Assembly: GCA_016870475.1 (NCBI GenBank)
Contig: VGBO01000015.1
Span: 1 to 43,628 of the forward strand
DNA length: 43,628 nucleotides
From: Actinomycetota bacterium
GTDB lineage: Bacteria; Actinomycetota; Acidimicrobiia; Acidimicrobiales; CAIXPF01
Direction of reading: 5' to 3'
Shown: piece by piece, positions 13,011 through 26,351 of the stretch
Position numbering within the stretch: position 1 is the first letter of the stretch
How the letters are laid out: every line of letters starts with the position of its first letter
The notes under the pieces: generated by a model
Told to the model about the DNA's origin: nothing
What the model saw: only the letters and a program-made list of their open reading frames with translations
Databases searched by the model: none
Program-made: the position numbers and the translations under genes

Positions 13011-15058
13011 GCCAGGTGGCCGACGTCGCGGAGGTCTCGCTTCAGCTCCTTGATCTCGTCGCGGAGACGGGCCGCATACTCGAAGCGCAGGTCGGCGGCT
13101 GCTTCGGCCATCTCGTCCTCCAAGGTGCGGATCAACCGCTCGAGATCACCCTCGGGGAGGTCACGCGCCGCATCGACCCGTTCGCCGACCCGACGTGCCC
13201 GCTCGGCCGCCTTCGCCGTGAGCCGCTCCGGCACCGGCGCCGACGCCGACGCACCCCGCAGGTGGGCGAGGATGTCCGACACCGCCTTGCGGATCGTCGT
13301 CGGGTTGATTCCGTGCTCCGCGTTGTAGGCGGTCTGCACCATCCGCCGGCGCTGCGTCTCGCCGATCGCCCGCCGCATCGAGTCCGTCACCGTGTCGGCG
13401 TACATGACCACCCGACCGTCGACGTTGCGCGCCGCACGGCCGATCGTCTGGATCAACGACGTCTCCGACCGCAGGAACCCCTCCTTGTCCGCGTCGAGGA
13501 TCGCAACGAGGGTCACCTCCGGCAGGTCGAGGCCCTCGCGCAGCAGATTGATGCCGACCAGCACGTCGAAATCGCCGAGCCGCAACCCGCGCAGGATCTC
13601 GATCCGTTCGATCGTGTCGATGTTCGAGTGCAGGTACCGCACCCGCACCCCGAGCTCGAGCAGGTACTCGGTGAGGTCCTCCGCCATCTTCTTCGTGAGC
13701 GTGGTGACGAGGACCCGGTTCCCCTTGCCGACCTCACGGTTGATGTCCTCGAGCAGATCGTCGATCTGTCCCTTCGTCGGCCGCACCTGGATCTCCGGGT
13801 CGACGAGCCCCGTCGGCCGCACGATCTGCTCCACCACGCGCGAGGAGACGCGCAGCTCGTAGTTGCCCGGCGTCGCCGACATGAAGATGCACTGCCGCAC
13901 CCGGTCCTGCCACTCCTCGAACCGCAACGGCCGGTTGTCGGCCGCCGACGGCAACCGGAACCCGTGCTCGACGAGGGTCATCTTCCGCGAACGGTCGCCC
14001 TCGTACTGGCCGTGGATCTGGGGCACCGCGACGTGCGACTCGTCGATCACCATCAGGAAGTCGTCGGGGAAGAAGTCGATCAGCGTCGACGGCGGCTCAC
14101 CCGGCGCCCGGCCGTCGATCGGCGCCGAGTAGTTCTCGATGCCCGAACAGAATCCGACCTCCGCCATCATCTCGAGGTCGTACTGGGTGCGCATGCGCAG
14201 ACGCTGCGCCTCGAGGAGCTTCCCCTCCGCCTCGAACCGGCCGAGCTGCTGCTGCAACTCCACCTCGATGCGTTCGATCGCCCGGCGCATCCGTTCAGCG
14301 CCCGACACGTAGTGCGTCGCCGGGTACACCACGAGCTCGTTGCGCGCAGCGATCCGCTCGCCGGTGACCGGGTCGACGACGGAGATCTCCTCGATCTCAT
14401 CGCCGAACATCGTGATCCGCACGATCGTCTCGTCGTAGGCGGGGTGCACCTCGATCGTGTCGCCACGCACCCGGAACTTGCCGCGCACCAGGTTCGCGTC
14501 GTTGCGCTCGTACCGCATGTCGACCAACCGCCGCAGCACATCACGCTGGTCGACCGAAGCGCCGACCTGGAGGATCAGCAGGTTCTCCCGGTACTCCTCC
14601 GGTGAGCCGAGGCCGTAGATCGCCGACACCGACGCCACCACGATCGTGTCCCGACGGGTGAGCAACGCCTCCGTCGTGGAGTGACGCAACCGGTCGATCT
14701 CGTCGTTGATCGTCGCGTCCTTCTCGATGTAGGTGTCCGAACTCGGGAGGTACGCCTCGGGCTGGTAGTAGTCGTAGTAGCTCACGAAGTACTCGACCCG
14801 GTTGTTCGGGAAGAACTCCTTGAACTCGTTCGCGAGCTGCGCCGCCAAGGACTTGTTCGGTGCGAGCACGAGCGTCGGCTTCTGCACCGCCTCGATCGTC
14901 CAGGCGATCGTCGCACTCTTCCCCGAGCCGGTGATCCCAAGGAGGGTCTGGAACCGCTCCCCCGCCTCCACGCCCGCGACCAGACCGGCGATCGCCTGCG
15001 GCTGGTGGCCGGCGGGCCGGAAGTCGGAGACGACTTCGAAACGGGGCATGACGGCCAT
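13007..15058 (-). CDS. uvrB: Excinuclease ABC subunit B
   Basis: [54 protein letters not shown]-terminal UVR motif. Stop overlaps the uvrA start (GTGA). Start may be 15058 or 15049. Confidence 0.96.
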
Positions 15059-21106: not shown

Positions 21107-21688
21107 TCAGCCGACGGGTGGCCGCAGGTCGCCGTCGACAACACGCTGGGCGACGGCCCGCATCGTCGACCGCTCCGCCATCGCGGTGGTCTGCACGAAC
21201 CGGAACGCCGCCTGCTCGGCGAGACCGCACTCGTCCATGAGCAGACCCTTCGCCCGATCGAGCAGCTTGCGGGTCTCGAGGCGATCCTCGAGGTCGCCGA
21301 CCTGGTCGTGCAGCGCCTTCATCTCGGCGAACCGGCCGAGCGCCACCTCGATCGCCGGTACGAGGTCGGAGCGCTGGAACGGCTTCACGAGGTACGCGAG
21401 CGCTCCGGCGTCGCGCGCCTGCACGATCAGGTCCCGCTGACTGAACGCCGTCAGGATCAACGTGGCCGCAAGCCGCTCCTCGTTGACGAGGCGCGCCGCG
21501 GCGATGCCGTCGAGCCCCGGCATCTTCACGTCGAGGATCACGAGATCGGGTTCGAGCGTCCGCACGAGATCGAGCACCTCGTCGCCTCGGCCCGTCTCGC
21601 CGACGACCTCGTAGCCCTCGTCCTCGAGGGACTCCCGCAGGTCGAGACGGATGATCGCCTCGTCCTCTGCGATCACGATCCGCGTCAT
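21107..21688 (-). CDS. ANTAR-domain response regulator (PdtaR-like antiterminator)
   Basis: Receiver: RIVIAEDEAIIRLDLRESLEDEGY, DLVILDVKMPGLDGI, LVKPFQ. C-terminal ANTAR: RKLLDRAKGLLMDECGLAEQAAFRFVQTTAM. Confidence 0.92.
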   Translation of the reverse strand: MTRIVIAEDEAIIRLDLRESLEDEGYEVVGETGRGDEVLDLVRTLEPDLVILDVKMPGLDGIAAARLVNEERLAATLILTAFSQRDLIVQARDAGALAYLVKPFQRSDLVPAIEVALGRFAEMKALHDQVGDLEDRLETRKLLDRAKGLLMDECGLAEQAAFRFVQTTAMAERSTMRAVAQRVVDGDLRPPVG

Positions 21689-21969: not shown

Positions 21970-23160
21970 ATGATCGCCTTCACCTTCCCCGGCCAGGGAT
22001 CGCAGCGTCCCGGCATGGGCGCGCCCTGGCGGGATGACCCGTCGTGGGCGCTGGTGGAACGTGCGAGCACCGTCGCCGGACGGAACGTCGCCCAACTCCT
22101 CCTCGAGGCCGACGCCGACGAGCTCAAGCTCAGCCACAACGCGCAGCTCTCCACGTTCGTGTTGAGCCTCGTCGTCCACGACGCCGCGGTGCGCTCCGGC
22201 CTGCGGGCCGACGCCGTCGCCGGGCACAGCCTCGGCGAGTACAGCGCCCTCGTCGCCGCCGGCGCGATCAGCTTCGACGACGGCGTGCGCCTCGTCGCAG
22301 AACGGGGCGACGCGATGCGCGCCGCCTGCACCGCCCATACCGGCACCATGGCCGCCGTCCTCGGCGGCGACGACGCCGACGTCGAAGCCGCCTGCGCCGA
22401 GGTGCGCTCCGACGGCGGCGACGTCTGGGTGGCGAACCTCAACGCCCCCGGCCAAGTCGTCATCGCCGGAGAACCCGACGCCCTCGCCCGGGCCGGTGAG
22501 GCGTGCAAGGCCCGCGGCGCGAAGCGGGTCATGCCCGTCGCCGTGTCCGGCGCCTTCCACACCCCCTACATGGCTCCGGCCCAGGAACGGCTCGACGCCG
22601 TCCTCGCCGCGACATCCTTCGCCGGTGCAGTCGTGCCGGTCGCGGCGAACGTCGACGCCGCCCTCCACCGCGACGCTACCGCCTGGCAGCAGCTCCTTTC
22701 GCGGCAGCTCTGCTCGCCGGTCCGGTGGAGCCACCTGCTCGGCACCCTCGACACCGAGGGCGTCAGCACCCTGATCGAGCTCGGACCCGGCACGGTGCTG
22801 TCGGGGATGGGCAAGCGCACGCTCGAGGGTGCCATCAGCCTCGCCGCATCGACACCGGCCGAGGTCGCCGACCTCGCCACCCGAATCGCACAGGAGGAAG
22901 CCAGAGTGGCCGCCAACACCACCGCCGTCGAGGGTGAACAGCTCTACGCCGCCGAACGACTCGTCGTCAGCCCCGCCGCGGGCGTGTTCGAACCGGTCGA
23001 CCTCGCCGACGGCACCCCCATCGAGGTCGGTGACCTCGTCGGCCGCGTCGGCGAGCACGAGGTGCGCGCCCGGTTCGCCGGCTGGGTCATGGGCCACCTC
23101 GCCCACCGCGGCGAACGGGTCACCCCGCGTCAGCCCGTCGCCTGGATGCGCATCGCCTGA
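21970..23160 (+). CDS. fabD: Malonyl-CoA:ACP transacylase with C-terminal lipoyl/biotinyl-like barrel domain
   Basis: FTFPGQGSQRPGMG, VAGHSLGEYSALVAAG, SGAFHTPYM, LIELGPGTVLSGM. About 70 extra C-terminal residues: ERLVVSPAAGVFEPVDLADGTPIEVGDLVGRVGEHEVRARFAGWVMGHLAHRGERVTPRQPVAWMRIA. Confidence 0.93.
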   Translation: MIAFTFPGQGSQRPGMGAPWRDDPSWALVERASTVAGRNVAQLLLEADADELKLSHNAQLSTFVLSLVVHDAAVRSGLRADAVAGHSLGEYSALVAAGAISFDDGVRLVAERGDAMRAACTAHTGTMAAVLGGDDADVEAACAEVRSDGGDVWVANLNAPGQVVIAGEPDALARAGEACKARGAKRVMPVAVSGAFHTPYMAPAQERLDAVLAATSFAGAVVPVAANVDAALHRDATAWQQLLSRQLCSPVRWSHLLGTLDTEGVSTLIELGPGTVLSGMGKRTLEGAISLAASTPAEVADLATRIAQEEARVAANTTAVEGEQLYAAERLVVSPAAGVFEPVDLADGTPIEVGDLVGRVGEHEVRARFAGWVMGHLAHRGERVTPRQPVAWMRIA

Positions 23161-23228: not shown

Positions 23229-24158
23229 ATGAGCGGCATGGTGATCCGGGGCGTGGGCTCCTGCCTCCCCGCGCAGCGACTCACGAACGTCGACCTCGAG
23301 TCGATGATGGACACCACCGACGACTGGATCGCCGACCGCACCGGGATCCGGGAACGGCGCATCGGCGGGTCAACCTCCGACATGGCGATCGAGGCGTCCC
23401 GCATCGCGATCGAACGATCCGGCATCGACCCGGCGACCATCGAACTCGTCGTGCTGTCGACGACCACACCCGACCAGCAGGTCCCCGCCACCGCACCCAC
23501 CGTGCAGGCCGCGCTCGGACTCAACTGCGGCGCTATCGACGTGAACGCCGCCTGTTCCGGCTTCACCTACGGCCTCATCGCGTCGGCGGGCATGATCGCA
23601 CTCGGCTCCGGACCCGTCCTCGTCGTCGGATCCGATGCGCTCTCCCGCATCACCGACTACCACGACCGCGGGACCGGCATCCTGTTCGCCGACGGCGCCG
23701 GCGCAGCCATCGTCACCCCCGTCGACGGACCGGGCAGCCTCCTCGGCTGGGACCTCGGCACCGACGGGTCGGCCCGCGGCATCCTCTACGCCGACATCGG
23801 GTCGGTCCTCAAGATGGACGGCAAGGAGGTGTTCCGTCGGGCGGTGCGCGTCATGGCGTCGTCCGCGGAGAACGCCATGCAACGGGCAGGCGTCACCATC
23901 GACGACATCAGCCTGTGCATCCCCCACCAGGCGAACATCCGCATCATCGACGCCGCCATCCAGCGCCTCGGCATCCCGATGGAGCGCACCGTCACCAACC
24001 TCGAGCGCGTCGGCAACACCTCGTCCGGATCGATCCCGCTCGCACTCGACGAAGCCGTGCAGGCCAGCCGCATCGCCGACGGCGACCTCGTGCTCGTGTG
24101 CGGGTTCGGTGCCGGCATGACCTGGGCGTCCTGCGTGCTGCGTTGGGGTGCGGCATGA
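23229..24158 (+). CDS. fabH: 3-oxoacyl-ACP synthase III
   Basis: IRGVGSCLPAQRLTN, DDWIADRTGIRERRI, DVNAACSGFTYGL, CIPHQANIRIIDA, NLERVGNTSSGSIPLAL. ATG at 23229. Confidence 0.95.
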   Translation: MSGMVIRGVGSCLPAQRLTNVDLESMMDTTDDWIADRTGIRERRIGGSTSDMAIEASRIAIERSGIDPATIELVVLSTTTPDQQVPATAPTVQAALGLNCGAIDVNAACSGFTYGLIASAGMIALGSGPVLVVGSDALSRITDYHDRGTGILFADGAGAAIVTPVDGPGSLLGWDLGTDGSARGILYADIGSVLKMDGKEVFRRAVRVMASSAENAMQRAGVTIDDISLCIPHQANIRIIDAAIQRLGIPMERTVTNLERVGNTSSGSIPLALDEAVQASRIADGDLVLVCGFGAGMTWASCVLRWGAA

Positions 24159-24865
24159 GCGGCCGCGTCGTCCTCGTCACCGGCGGCAACCGCGGCATCG
24201 GCCGCGCCTGCGCCGAGGCGTTCCGCGACGCCGGCCACCGGGCGGCGATCACCTGCCGGGGCGACGACCCCGGTATCCCGGGCGTCCTCGCCGTCCGCTG
24301 CGACGTCACCGACACCGCCGCCGTGGACGCAGCGTTCGCAACGGTCGAGGCCGAACTCGGTCCGGTCGAGGTGCTCGTCTCCAACGCAGGCATCACCCGG
24401 GACGGCCTCGTGGTGCGCATGAGCGACGACGACTTCACCGCCGTCCTCGACGCCAACCTGACCGGCGGCTTCCGCGTGGCCCGTCGCGCCGTCAAGACGA
24501 TGATGAAGGCGCGCTGGGGACGGATCGTGTTCATCTCCTCCGTCGTCGGGCAGGTCGGCCAGGCCGGACAGGCCAACTACGCCGCCTCGAAAGCCGGCCT
24601 CGCCGGCATGGCACGGTCACTCGCCCGCGAGTTCGCGTCGCGTAGCATCACCGTCAACGTCGTCGCCCCCGGACCGATCGCCACCGACATGACCGATGCC
24701 CTGAACGACGCCCAGCGCGCCGCGATCGGCGAGAACGTGCCGGCCGGACGGTTCGGGACCGCCGAGGAGGTCGCGGCCGCCGTGACCTTCCTGGCGTCCG
24801 ACGCCGCAGCCTTCATTACCGGCATCGTCCTGCCGGTCGACGGTGGACTCACCATGGGTGCCTGA
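24155..24865 (+). CDS. fabG: 3-oxoacyl-ACP reductase (SDR)
   Basis: VVLVTGGNRGIGRACAEAF, LVSNAGITRDGLVVRM, YAASKAGLAGMARSLARE, GIVLPVDGGLTMGA. Confidence 0.93.
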   Translation: MSGRVVLVTGGNRGIGRACAEAFRDAGHRAAITCRGDDPGIPGVLAVRCDVTDTAAVDAAFATVEAELGPVEVLVSNAGITRDGLVVRMSDDDFTAVLDANLTGGFRVARRAVKTMMKARWGRIVFISSVVGQVGQAGQANYAASKAGLAGMARSLAREFASRSITVNVVAPGPIATDMTDALNDAQRAAIGENVPAGRFGTAEEVAAAVTFLASDAAAFITGIVLPVDGGLTMGA

Positions 24866-24912: not shown

Positions 24913-25146
24913 ATGGCCGACAACTTCGAACGCTTCCAGCAGTGTGCGGTGAACGTCCTGTCCGTCGACGCCGCCAAGGTCACCCTCGAGGCATCCTTCG
25001 CCGACGACCTCGACGCCGACAGCCTCGACCTCGTCGAGCTGGTCATGGCGCTCGAGGAGGAGTTCGACGTCACCGTCGAGGAGTCCGAGCTCGAAGGCAT
25101 CGGCACCGTGCGCCAGGCCTACGAGCTCATCACGTCCAAGCTCTGA
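24913..25146 (+). CDS. acpP: Acyl carrier protein
   Basis: 77 aa, phosphopantetheine site DADSLDLVELVMALEEEFDV. Confidence 0.95.
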   Translation: MADNFERFQQCAVNVLSVDAAKVTLEASFADDLDADSLDLVELVMALEEEFDVTVEESELEGIGTVRQAYELITSKL

Positions 25147-25172
25147 CCGGTCACCCGACCAGGAGGAACCCT

Positions 25173-26351
25173 GTGCCCGACCGTCGCGTCGTCGTCACCG
25201 GAGCCGGGGTCGTCGCGCCCTGCGGGATCGGCCGGTCCGCCTATTGGGACGGCCTGCTCCGCACGCCCGCCGAAGGGCTCCGCCGTATCGAGGACTTCGA
25301 CCCGGAGCCCTACTTCGAGAACCCGAAGGAGGCCCGGCGCAGCGACCGCTTCACCCAGTTCGCACTCGCCGCAGCCGCCGAGGCGCTCGAACACTCGGGC
25401 CTCCAGGCCGACCCCGCACGGGTCGGGGTGAACATCGCAACCGGTGTCGGCGGGCTCGGCACCCTCGAGGAACAGATCCTCGTCAACTACGAGAAGGGCT
25501 CCCGACGGGTCTCCCCCTTCCTCGTCCCGATGATGATGGGCAACGCCGCGTCGGCCGCCGTGTCGATGCGGCACGGCTTCCAGGGGCCCTGCGAGACCAC
25601 GGTGACCGCCTGCGCTGCCTCGACGCACTCCATCGGCTCGGCGATGCGCTACATCCGCTGGGACCTCGTCGACGTGATGGTCGTCGGCGGCGCCGAAGCG
25701 GCGATGACCCCGACCGCGCTCGCCGGGTTCGGGAACATGACCGCCCTCTCCAACAGCGGCGTGTCCCGCCCCTTCGACGCCGGCCGTGACGGTTTCGTCA
25801 TGGCGGAGGCCGCCGGCGTGCTCGTCCTCGAGGAACTCGGGCACGCCCGCCGCCGCGGGGCGAACATCATCGGGGAGATCCTCGGCGCGGGGAACAACGC
25901 CGACGCCCACCACATCACCGCACCCTCTCCCGGCGGGGTCGGCGCGATCCGCTGCATGCAGCTCGCCCTCGCCGATGCCGGCCTCACCACCGCCGACATC
26001 ACCCACATCAACGCGCACGGCACGTCCACACCGCTGAACGACGCCGCCGAAGCCGACGCCATCGGCGTCGTGTTCGGTGCAGACGGGCCGGCGGTGACTT
26101 CGACCAAGGGCGTCACCGGCCATGCGCTCGGCGCCGCCGGCGCGATCGAGGCGATCGCCGTGCTGCTCGCCATGGAACACCGGACCATCCCGCCGACGGC
26201 GTGCACCTCCACCGTCGATCCGGAACTGTTCCCGATCGACCTCGTGCTCGGCAGCCCGCGCCCCTGGGAACCCGGCTACGCGCTGTCGAACAGCTTCGGG
26301 TTCGGCGGGCACAACGGCTCGCTCGTCATCGGGCCGCCCCCGGTCGACTGA
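25173..26351 (+). CDS. fabF: 3-oxoacyl-ACP synthase II
   Basis: RRVVVTGAGVVAPCGIG, TVTACAASTHSIGSAM, NAHGTSTPLNDAAEADAI, KGVTGHALGAAGAIEA, SNSFGFGGHNGSLV. AGGAGG SD before GTG at 25173. Confidence 0.95.
   Translation: MPDRRVVVTGAGVVAPCGIGRSAYWDGLLRTPAEGLRRIEDFDPEPYFENPKEARRSDRFTQFALAAAAEALEHSGLQADPARVGVNIATGVGGLGTLEEQILVNYEKGSRRVSPFLVPMMMGNAASAAVSMRHGFQGPCETTVTACAASTHSIGSAMRYIRWDLVDVMVVGGAEAAMTPTALAGFGNMTALSNSGVSRPFDAGRDGFVMAEAAGVLVLEELGHARRRGANIIGEILGAGNNADAHHITAPSPGGVGAIRCMQLALADAGLTTADITHINAHGTSTPLNDAAEADAIGVVFGADGPAVTSTKGVTGHALGAAGAIEAIAVLLAMEHRTIPPTACTSTVDPELFPIDLVLGSPRPWEPGYALSNSFGFGGHNGSLVIGPPPVD

Follow-up and report, generated by a model that had tools for sequence, protein, structure and literature searches.

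A lysine-less BCCP-like domain, fused to FabD or encoded beside it in many actinobacteria, suggests an adaptor at the malonyl-CoA hand-over to fatty-acid synthesis

Acetyl-CoA carboxylase (ACC) and the malonyl-CoA:ACP transacylase FabD are usually seen as separate soluble enzymes that are linked only by free malonyl-CoA. The carboxyltransferase makes malonyl-CoA, FabD transfers the malonyl moiety to the acyl carrier protein (ACP), and FabH consumes the malonyl-ACP. Barrel-sandwich domains that remain unmodified are present in YqeB, RnfC, NqrA, and HlyD and are not known to have an attachment lysine. Plants have BADC proteins, homologues of the biotin carboxyl carrier protein (BCCP) lacking the biotinylation motif, for which two roles have been proposed, inhibition of ACCase and service as assembly glue (PMC11926652). 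No report of a BADC fusion to a malonyl transacylase was found, and the open-access literature yielded no FabD or fab operon joined with such a domain, which constitutes weak evidence of absence. Lysine-less BCCP homologues are known from plants; the fusion of such a domain to FabD and the existence of an actinobacterial family of such domains in fab operons are, as far as checked, apparently undescribed.

The window, i.e., the whole stretch of DNA analyzed, comprises 43,628 nucleotides of an actinobacterial genome. Positions 21970-23160 (+) form a single unbroken open reading frame (ORF) of 396 amino acids (Table 1). As stated in the initial annotation, this ORF runs in frame from FabD into a C-terminal tail; the tail delimited there as 22938-23160 approximately coincides with the barrel mapped here. 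The catalytic region scores 280.6 bits against the FabD equivalog model TIGR00128 (curated cut-off 260.9), which identifies the protein as a member of this family, and its active site (S87 within GHSLG, R112, and H197) is intact and invariant in 18 homologues. The protein thus shares catalytic domain and catalytic residues with ordinary FabD but carries an extra C-terminal domain, here termed pseudo-BCCP. Upstream of the fab cluster, a response regulator with an ANTAR RNA-binding domain (21107-21688, minus strand) adjoins polA.

Table 1. Coordinates of the fused FabD, its parts, and the downstream fab genes in the window
Feature	Position	Strand	Evidence or remark
FabD (malonyl-CoA:ACP transacylase) catalytic domain, aa 1-285	21970..22824	+	TIGR00128
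FabD C-terminal end and variable linker, aa 286-320	22825..22929	+	Pairwise identity
Lys-less BCCP-like barrel (pseudo-BCCP), aa 321-396	22930..23157	+	Family profile vs PDB, hhalign, Lys column
Shortened hairpin VGEHEVRA, aa 360-367	23047-23070	+	Within pseudo-BCCP barrel
fabH (KAS III), next gene after fabD	23229..24158	+	Pfam ACP_syn_III, ACP_syn_III_C
fabG (3-ketoacyl-ACP reductase)	24155..24865	+	Pfam adh_short_C2
acpP (acyl carrier protein)	24913..25146	+	Pfam PP-binding
fabF (KAS II), cluster end in window	25143..26351	+	Pfam ketoacyl-synt N and C domains

Mean pairwise identity among 18 fused homologues amounts to 0.61 in the catalytic domain, 0.45 at residues 286-303, 0.19 in the linker (304-320), and 0.53 in the barrel. 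Conservation of the barrel nearly matches that of the enzyme and drops in the linker between them, a pattern that indicates two domains joined flexibly rather than a disordered extension. Taken alone, the window barrel matches Pfam Biotin_lipoyl (PF00364 clan) with an E-value of 0.03-0.06, below the Pfam gathering score, and the NCBIfam model YqeB (TIGR03309) with 1e-5 (best value among family members, 3e-8). Because the single window sequence matches only weakly, the barrel was assigned by way of family profiles. The best PDB matches to a profile of 37 tails (A1) are carriers of the biotinyl and lipoyl types (E 6.8e-5), a profile built from 28 diverse members (A5) retrieves barrel-sandwich carriers with E-values of 4e-13 to 5e-9, and a profile of 25 members partly overlapping those of A5 (A8) reaches 5e-14 against PDB barrels. 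The leading PDB matches, 1a6x, 1bdo, and 4hr7 among them, are biotinyl/lipoyl-type barrels only. At the profile level, the barrel fold initially proposed for the tail is therefore borne out, and family profile matches together with an identity of 0.53 mark it as a real second domain. That the tail is merely a disordered extension common among FabDs, or resembles a barrel by chance, has a negligible probability: the weak single-sequence scores might be cited in favor, but the profiles match barrels with E-values of 1e-8 to 1e-14, the tail is strongly conserved, and free-standing barrel genes exist. AlphaFold, run on the full protein and on the domain with a two-sequence alignment only (window and L107), returned models with mean pLDDT values of 56.5 and 38.5, the latter of which failed on the known FabD part as well.

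Comparison of A5 with thumb-bearing AccB-type BCCPs by hhalign gave a probability of 98.9% and an E-value of 1.5e-17 over 77 of 85 columns; the alignment extends nearly end to end, the thumb of A5 being three residues shorter. Profile-profile E-values are 4e-16 for A8 against AccB-type BCCPs and 6.7e-10 for A5 against BCCPs of the AccA3 type from the same genome. The kinship with biotinyl/lipoyl barrels put forward earlier thus stands, but a generic lipoyl domain does not describe the tail, since AccB-type BCCPs are its closest relatives. With AccB, the BCCP of heteromeric acetyl-CoA carboxylase, the pseudo-BCCP shares a whole-domain profile match including the shortened thumb. Unlike AccB, it has no biotinyl lysine, MKM motif, or N-terminal region, sits with fabD and fabH instead of biotin carboxylase, and is often fused to FabD. 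The unmodified domains of YqeB (TIGR03309), RnfC, NqrA, and HlyD display weak sequence likeness, but these proteins differ in full-length architecture and pathway, and the scores fall far below their cut-offs. Judged from these comparisons, the tail is probably a pseudo-BCCP that is descended from, or most similar to, the thumb-bearing BCCP of the AccB type.

The carrier-lysine column was read from an alignment of 107 unique stretches and four genuine biotinyl domains. It contains a gap in 45 stretches, glycine in 38, other residues in 20, and lysine in only four (L188, L194, L195, and L196), so that the carrier lysine is missing in 103 of 107. The four exceptions all lie beside biotin carboxylase; they are real BCCPs and serve as a built-in positive control. 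None of the 103 relatives outside these BCCPs has a biotinylated lysine in an (A/S)MK(M) hairpin, and in the neighborhoods read only the four lysine-bearing matches adjoin a biotin carboxylase gene; by either mark, the relatives are not functional BCCP/AccB proteins. No lysine at all is present in 59 of the 107 stretches. The window hairpin, already described as lysine-free in the initial annotation, lies in a barrel with zero lysines anywhere, and the loss throughout the family supports the accompanying claim that the domain is unmodifiable. Having lost the biotinylated lysine, a pseudo-BCCP would be unable to carry CO2. Compared with that of BCCPs, the hairpin of the fused order-level clade lacks 4-5 residues; free relatives mostly keep the BCCP-length hairpin, with the lysine replaced mostly by glycine. 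The lysine-bearing domains of the window's genome are mostly found in BC-BCCP type proteins, and none of its PF00364 biotin/lipoyl domains is located on the window contig. Two other contigs of this genome (C25 and C62; loci L055 and L056) feature open frames of 1147 and 1167 amino acids, and L055 combines a biotin carboxylase, a biotinyl, and a carboxyltransferase part within a single chain.

A survey with the family profile covered the phylum Actinomycetota; a HlyD-like match (L101) and an orphan (L123) were excluded as possibly unrelated. The domain occurs fused to FabD, as a free protein of ~90-140 amino acids encoded between fabD and fabH, or encoded before fabH without fabD. Among the sampled loci, partly picked by barrel matches, it directly follows fabD in 18 of 20 further loci of the phylum, and the loci collected for a FabD tree comprise 54 fused FabDs, 29 with the barrel as the next gene, and 24 without a barrel. 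The barrel-bearing loci (54 fused and 29 separate) represent 57 family codes and one named record. Searching for the same fusion in other genomes, as suggested at the outset, thus did recover it, but not as the oddity of one protein: the domain forms a phylum-wide family and is often encoded by a separate gene. A frameshift or an assembly artefact as the source of the fusion is ruled out by the 54 fused cases. Most FabDs in the window's order bear the tail, one named relative, from an Acidimicrobiales MAG (L107), was retrieved by a genome-collection scan, and no relatives were found in viral contigs. Barrel-less FabDs are also numerous within the same class. In the FabD tree, 16 barrel-less FabDs of the class form one clade (SH-aLRT 97) with fabH directly after fabD. 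On the free tree, the fused label requires six changes, but a single origin of the fusion is only marginally rejected (AU p 0.044). Within the window's order, five loci of family f23 (L133, L135, L136, L176, and L177) display the arrangement fabD-fabG-acpP-fabF without fabH and without a barrel, and genomes of family f20 gave no FabD match at all.

Gene neighborhoods of up to 19.5 kb were read. An acyl-CoA carboxylase carboxyltransferase gene is present in 21 of 36 barrel-bearing versus 2 of 18 barrel-less fabD clusters (Fisher p 0.001, not corrected for shared ancestry). In all eight class members with a separate barrel (L147-L152, L178, and L179), the order is fabD-barrel-fabH-fabG-acpP-fabF-carboxyltransferase, and eleven loci from other groups have a carboxyltransferase gene after fabF too. 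The encoded protein is of the acyl-CoA carboxylase/decarboxylase type, its best NCBIfam match being TIGR01117 with a score below the cut-off of that model. In a single case, L159, a barrel ORF (13136-13501) is directly followed by a carboxyltransferase starting at 13505, and fabD was not found within the 16.5 kb examined. The carboxyltransferase gene is absent from the cluster in the fused loci of the window's order, the window's own locus among them (0 of 7 extended loci), in five loci of other classes (L153-L157), and in L197-L199. Its presence in the cluster of many relatives agrees with the initial proposal of a tie to malonyl-CoA supply. Two barrel-less loci from ~1-Mb genomes (L170 and L171, family f123) carry carboxyltransferase and biotin carboxylase genes directly upstream of fabD.

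All neighbors of the barrel work at, or adjacent to, a single step of the pathway. A BCCP-like domain that can no longer carry CO2 and yet is conserved and joined to FabD is best read as an adaptor that docks where malonyl-CoA changes hands. From profile-level homology, lysine loss, conservation, fusion, and gene order, we infer binding to ACC or its carboxyltransferase and a role in channeling or assembly. The non-biotinylated pseudo-BCCP would act as a protein-protein adaptor at the transfer of malonyl-CoA between acyl-CoA carboxylase and FabD (and FabH). In the window's order, it is part of the FabD chain; in many relatives, it would act in trans as the small protein encoded between fabD and fabH. 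Docking of its BCCP-like surface onto the carboxyltransferase or onto ACC as a complex could place FabD near freshly made malonyl-CoA. An adaptor role at this step that involves ACC in one way or another is about evenly poised between true and false. The version with docking on ACC, which derives from gene order and from the resemblance to a domain that naturally partners with ACC enzymes, can be put forward only tentatively; with the same reserve, the family may be regarded as a bacterial link between ACC and the type II fatty-acid synthase, with FabD docked at the carboxyltransferase in cis or in trans. Against this reading speak the lack of a clustered carboxyltransferase gene in the window's own order and in the other loci named above, and the many barrel-less FabDs of the class. 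Docking via the hairpin face may be lost in the fused order-level clade, where the hairpin is shortened.

Much of the gene order would also suit a scaffold acting inside type II fatty-acid synthesis only, in which the domain would keep FabD beside FabH, or would present AcpP, and leave ACC untouched. Most loci have the barrel between fabD and fabH; it directly precedes fabH even where fabD is elsewhere (L037, L180-L183, L186, L187, L191, and L192), and FabD is the sole fusion partner seen. This alternative is nevertheless less likely than not, since the barrel stays beside FabD although fabH is absent from the cluster in five fused loci and L139, and since at L159 it adjoins a carboxyltransferase alone. 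Moreover, the domain is acidic on average (mean net charge -3.0), so that a site for the acidic ACP is not favored.

A BADC-like regulator, competing as a lysine-less domain with the real BCCP in ACC and throttling or tuning malonyl-CoA synthesis by the amount of FabD, would accord with the partly kept AccB-like thumb and with the inhibitor role proposed for the lysine-less BCCP homologues of plants (PMC11926652). The same paper, however, favors assembly over inhibition in plants, and the predominance of BC-BCCP type proteins in the window's genome leaves no clear AccB subunit to displace, which renders such competition improbable. Still less probable is an intramolecular stabilizer of FabD that has no partner. 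While the domain is fused to FabD and an acyl hydrolase of the same fold needs a helical C-terminal extension in order to fold (PMC11775670), the hypervariable linker, the common occurrence of FabD without a barrel, and the existence of the free protein away from fabD (L037, L180-L183, and L159) all speak against it.

Should the adaptor at the malonyl-CoA hand-over exist as proposed, malonyl-CoA supply and use would be coupled, and bacteria would possess a counterpart of plant BADC hard-wired into the fab operon. BADC represents the nearest functional analogue, the analogy being drawn for function only. Both are BCCP homologues without a biotinylation motif and tied to the ACC/fatty-acid step, but BADC are plastid proteins, are longer, and bind BC and BCCP (PMC11926652). 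Found across many actinobacteria, the family suggests an undescribed adaptor at this step; with a conserved, non-catalytic, carrier-like domain at the junction of ACC and FabD, bacteria would permit a direct test of whether malonyl-CoA supply is coupled to its use. Such a domain would also offer a bacterial system for the role of lysine-less BCCP homologues, which is debated for plant BADC. As the domain is found both fused and free, the two forms lend themselves to comparison in assays of binding and activity.

The linker of the window FabD contains a perfect AGGAGG located 8 bases before an in-frame GTG (22891-22908; V313, GTG at 22906). A 6-base Shine-Dalgarno sequence with a start codon is present in the linkers of the five genomes of family f1, in two different places, and is missing from the remaining 49 linkers of fused FabDs (background 1.5%); relatives from the same family as the window have a similar motif elsewhere in the linker, and other families have none. 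Going by these signals, the barrel might additionally be produced from the linker GTG as a separate protein of ~84 residues.
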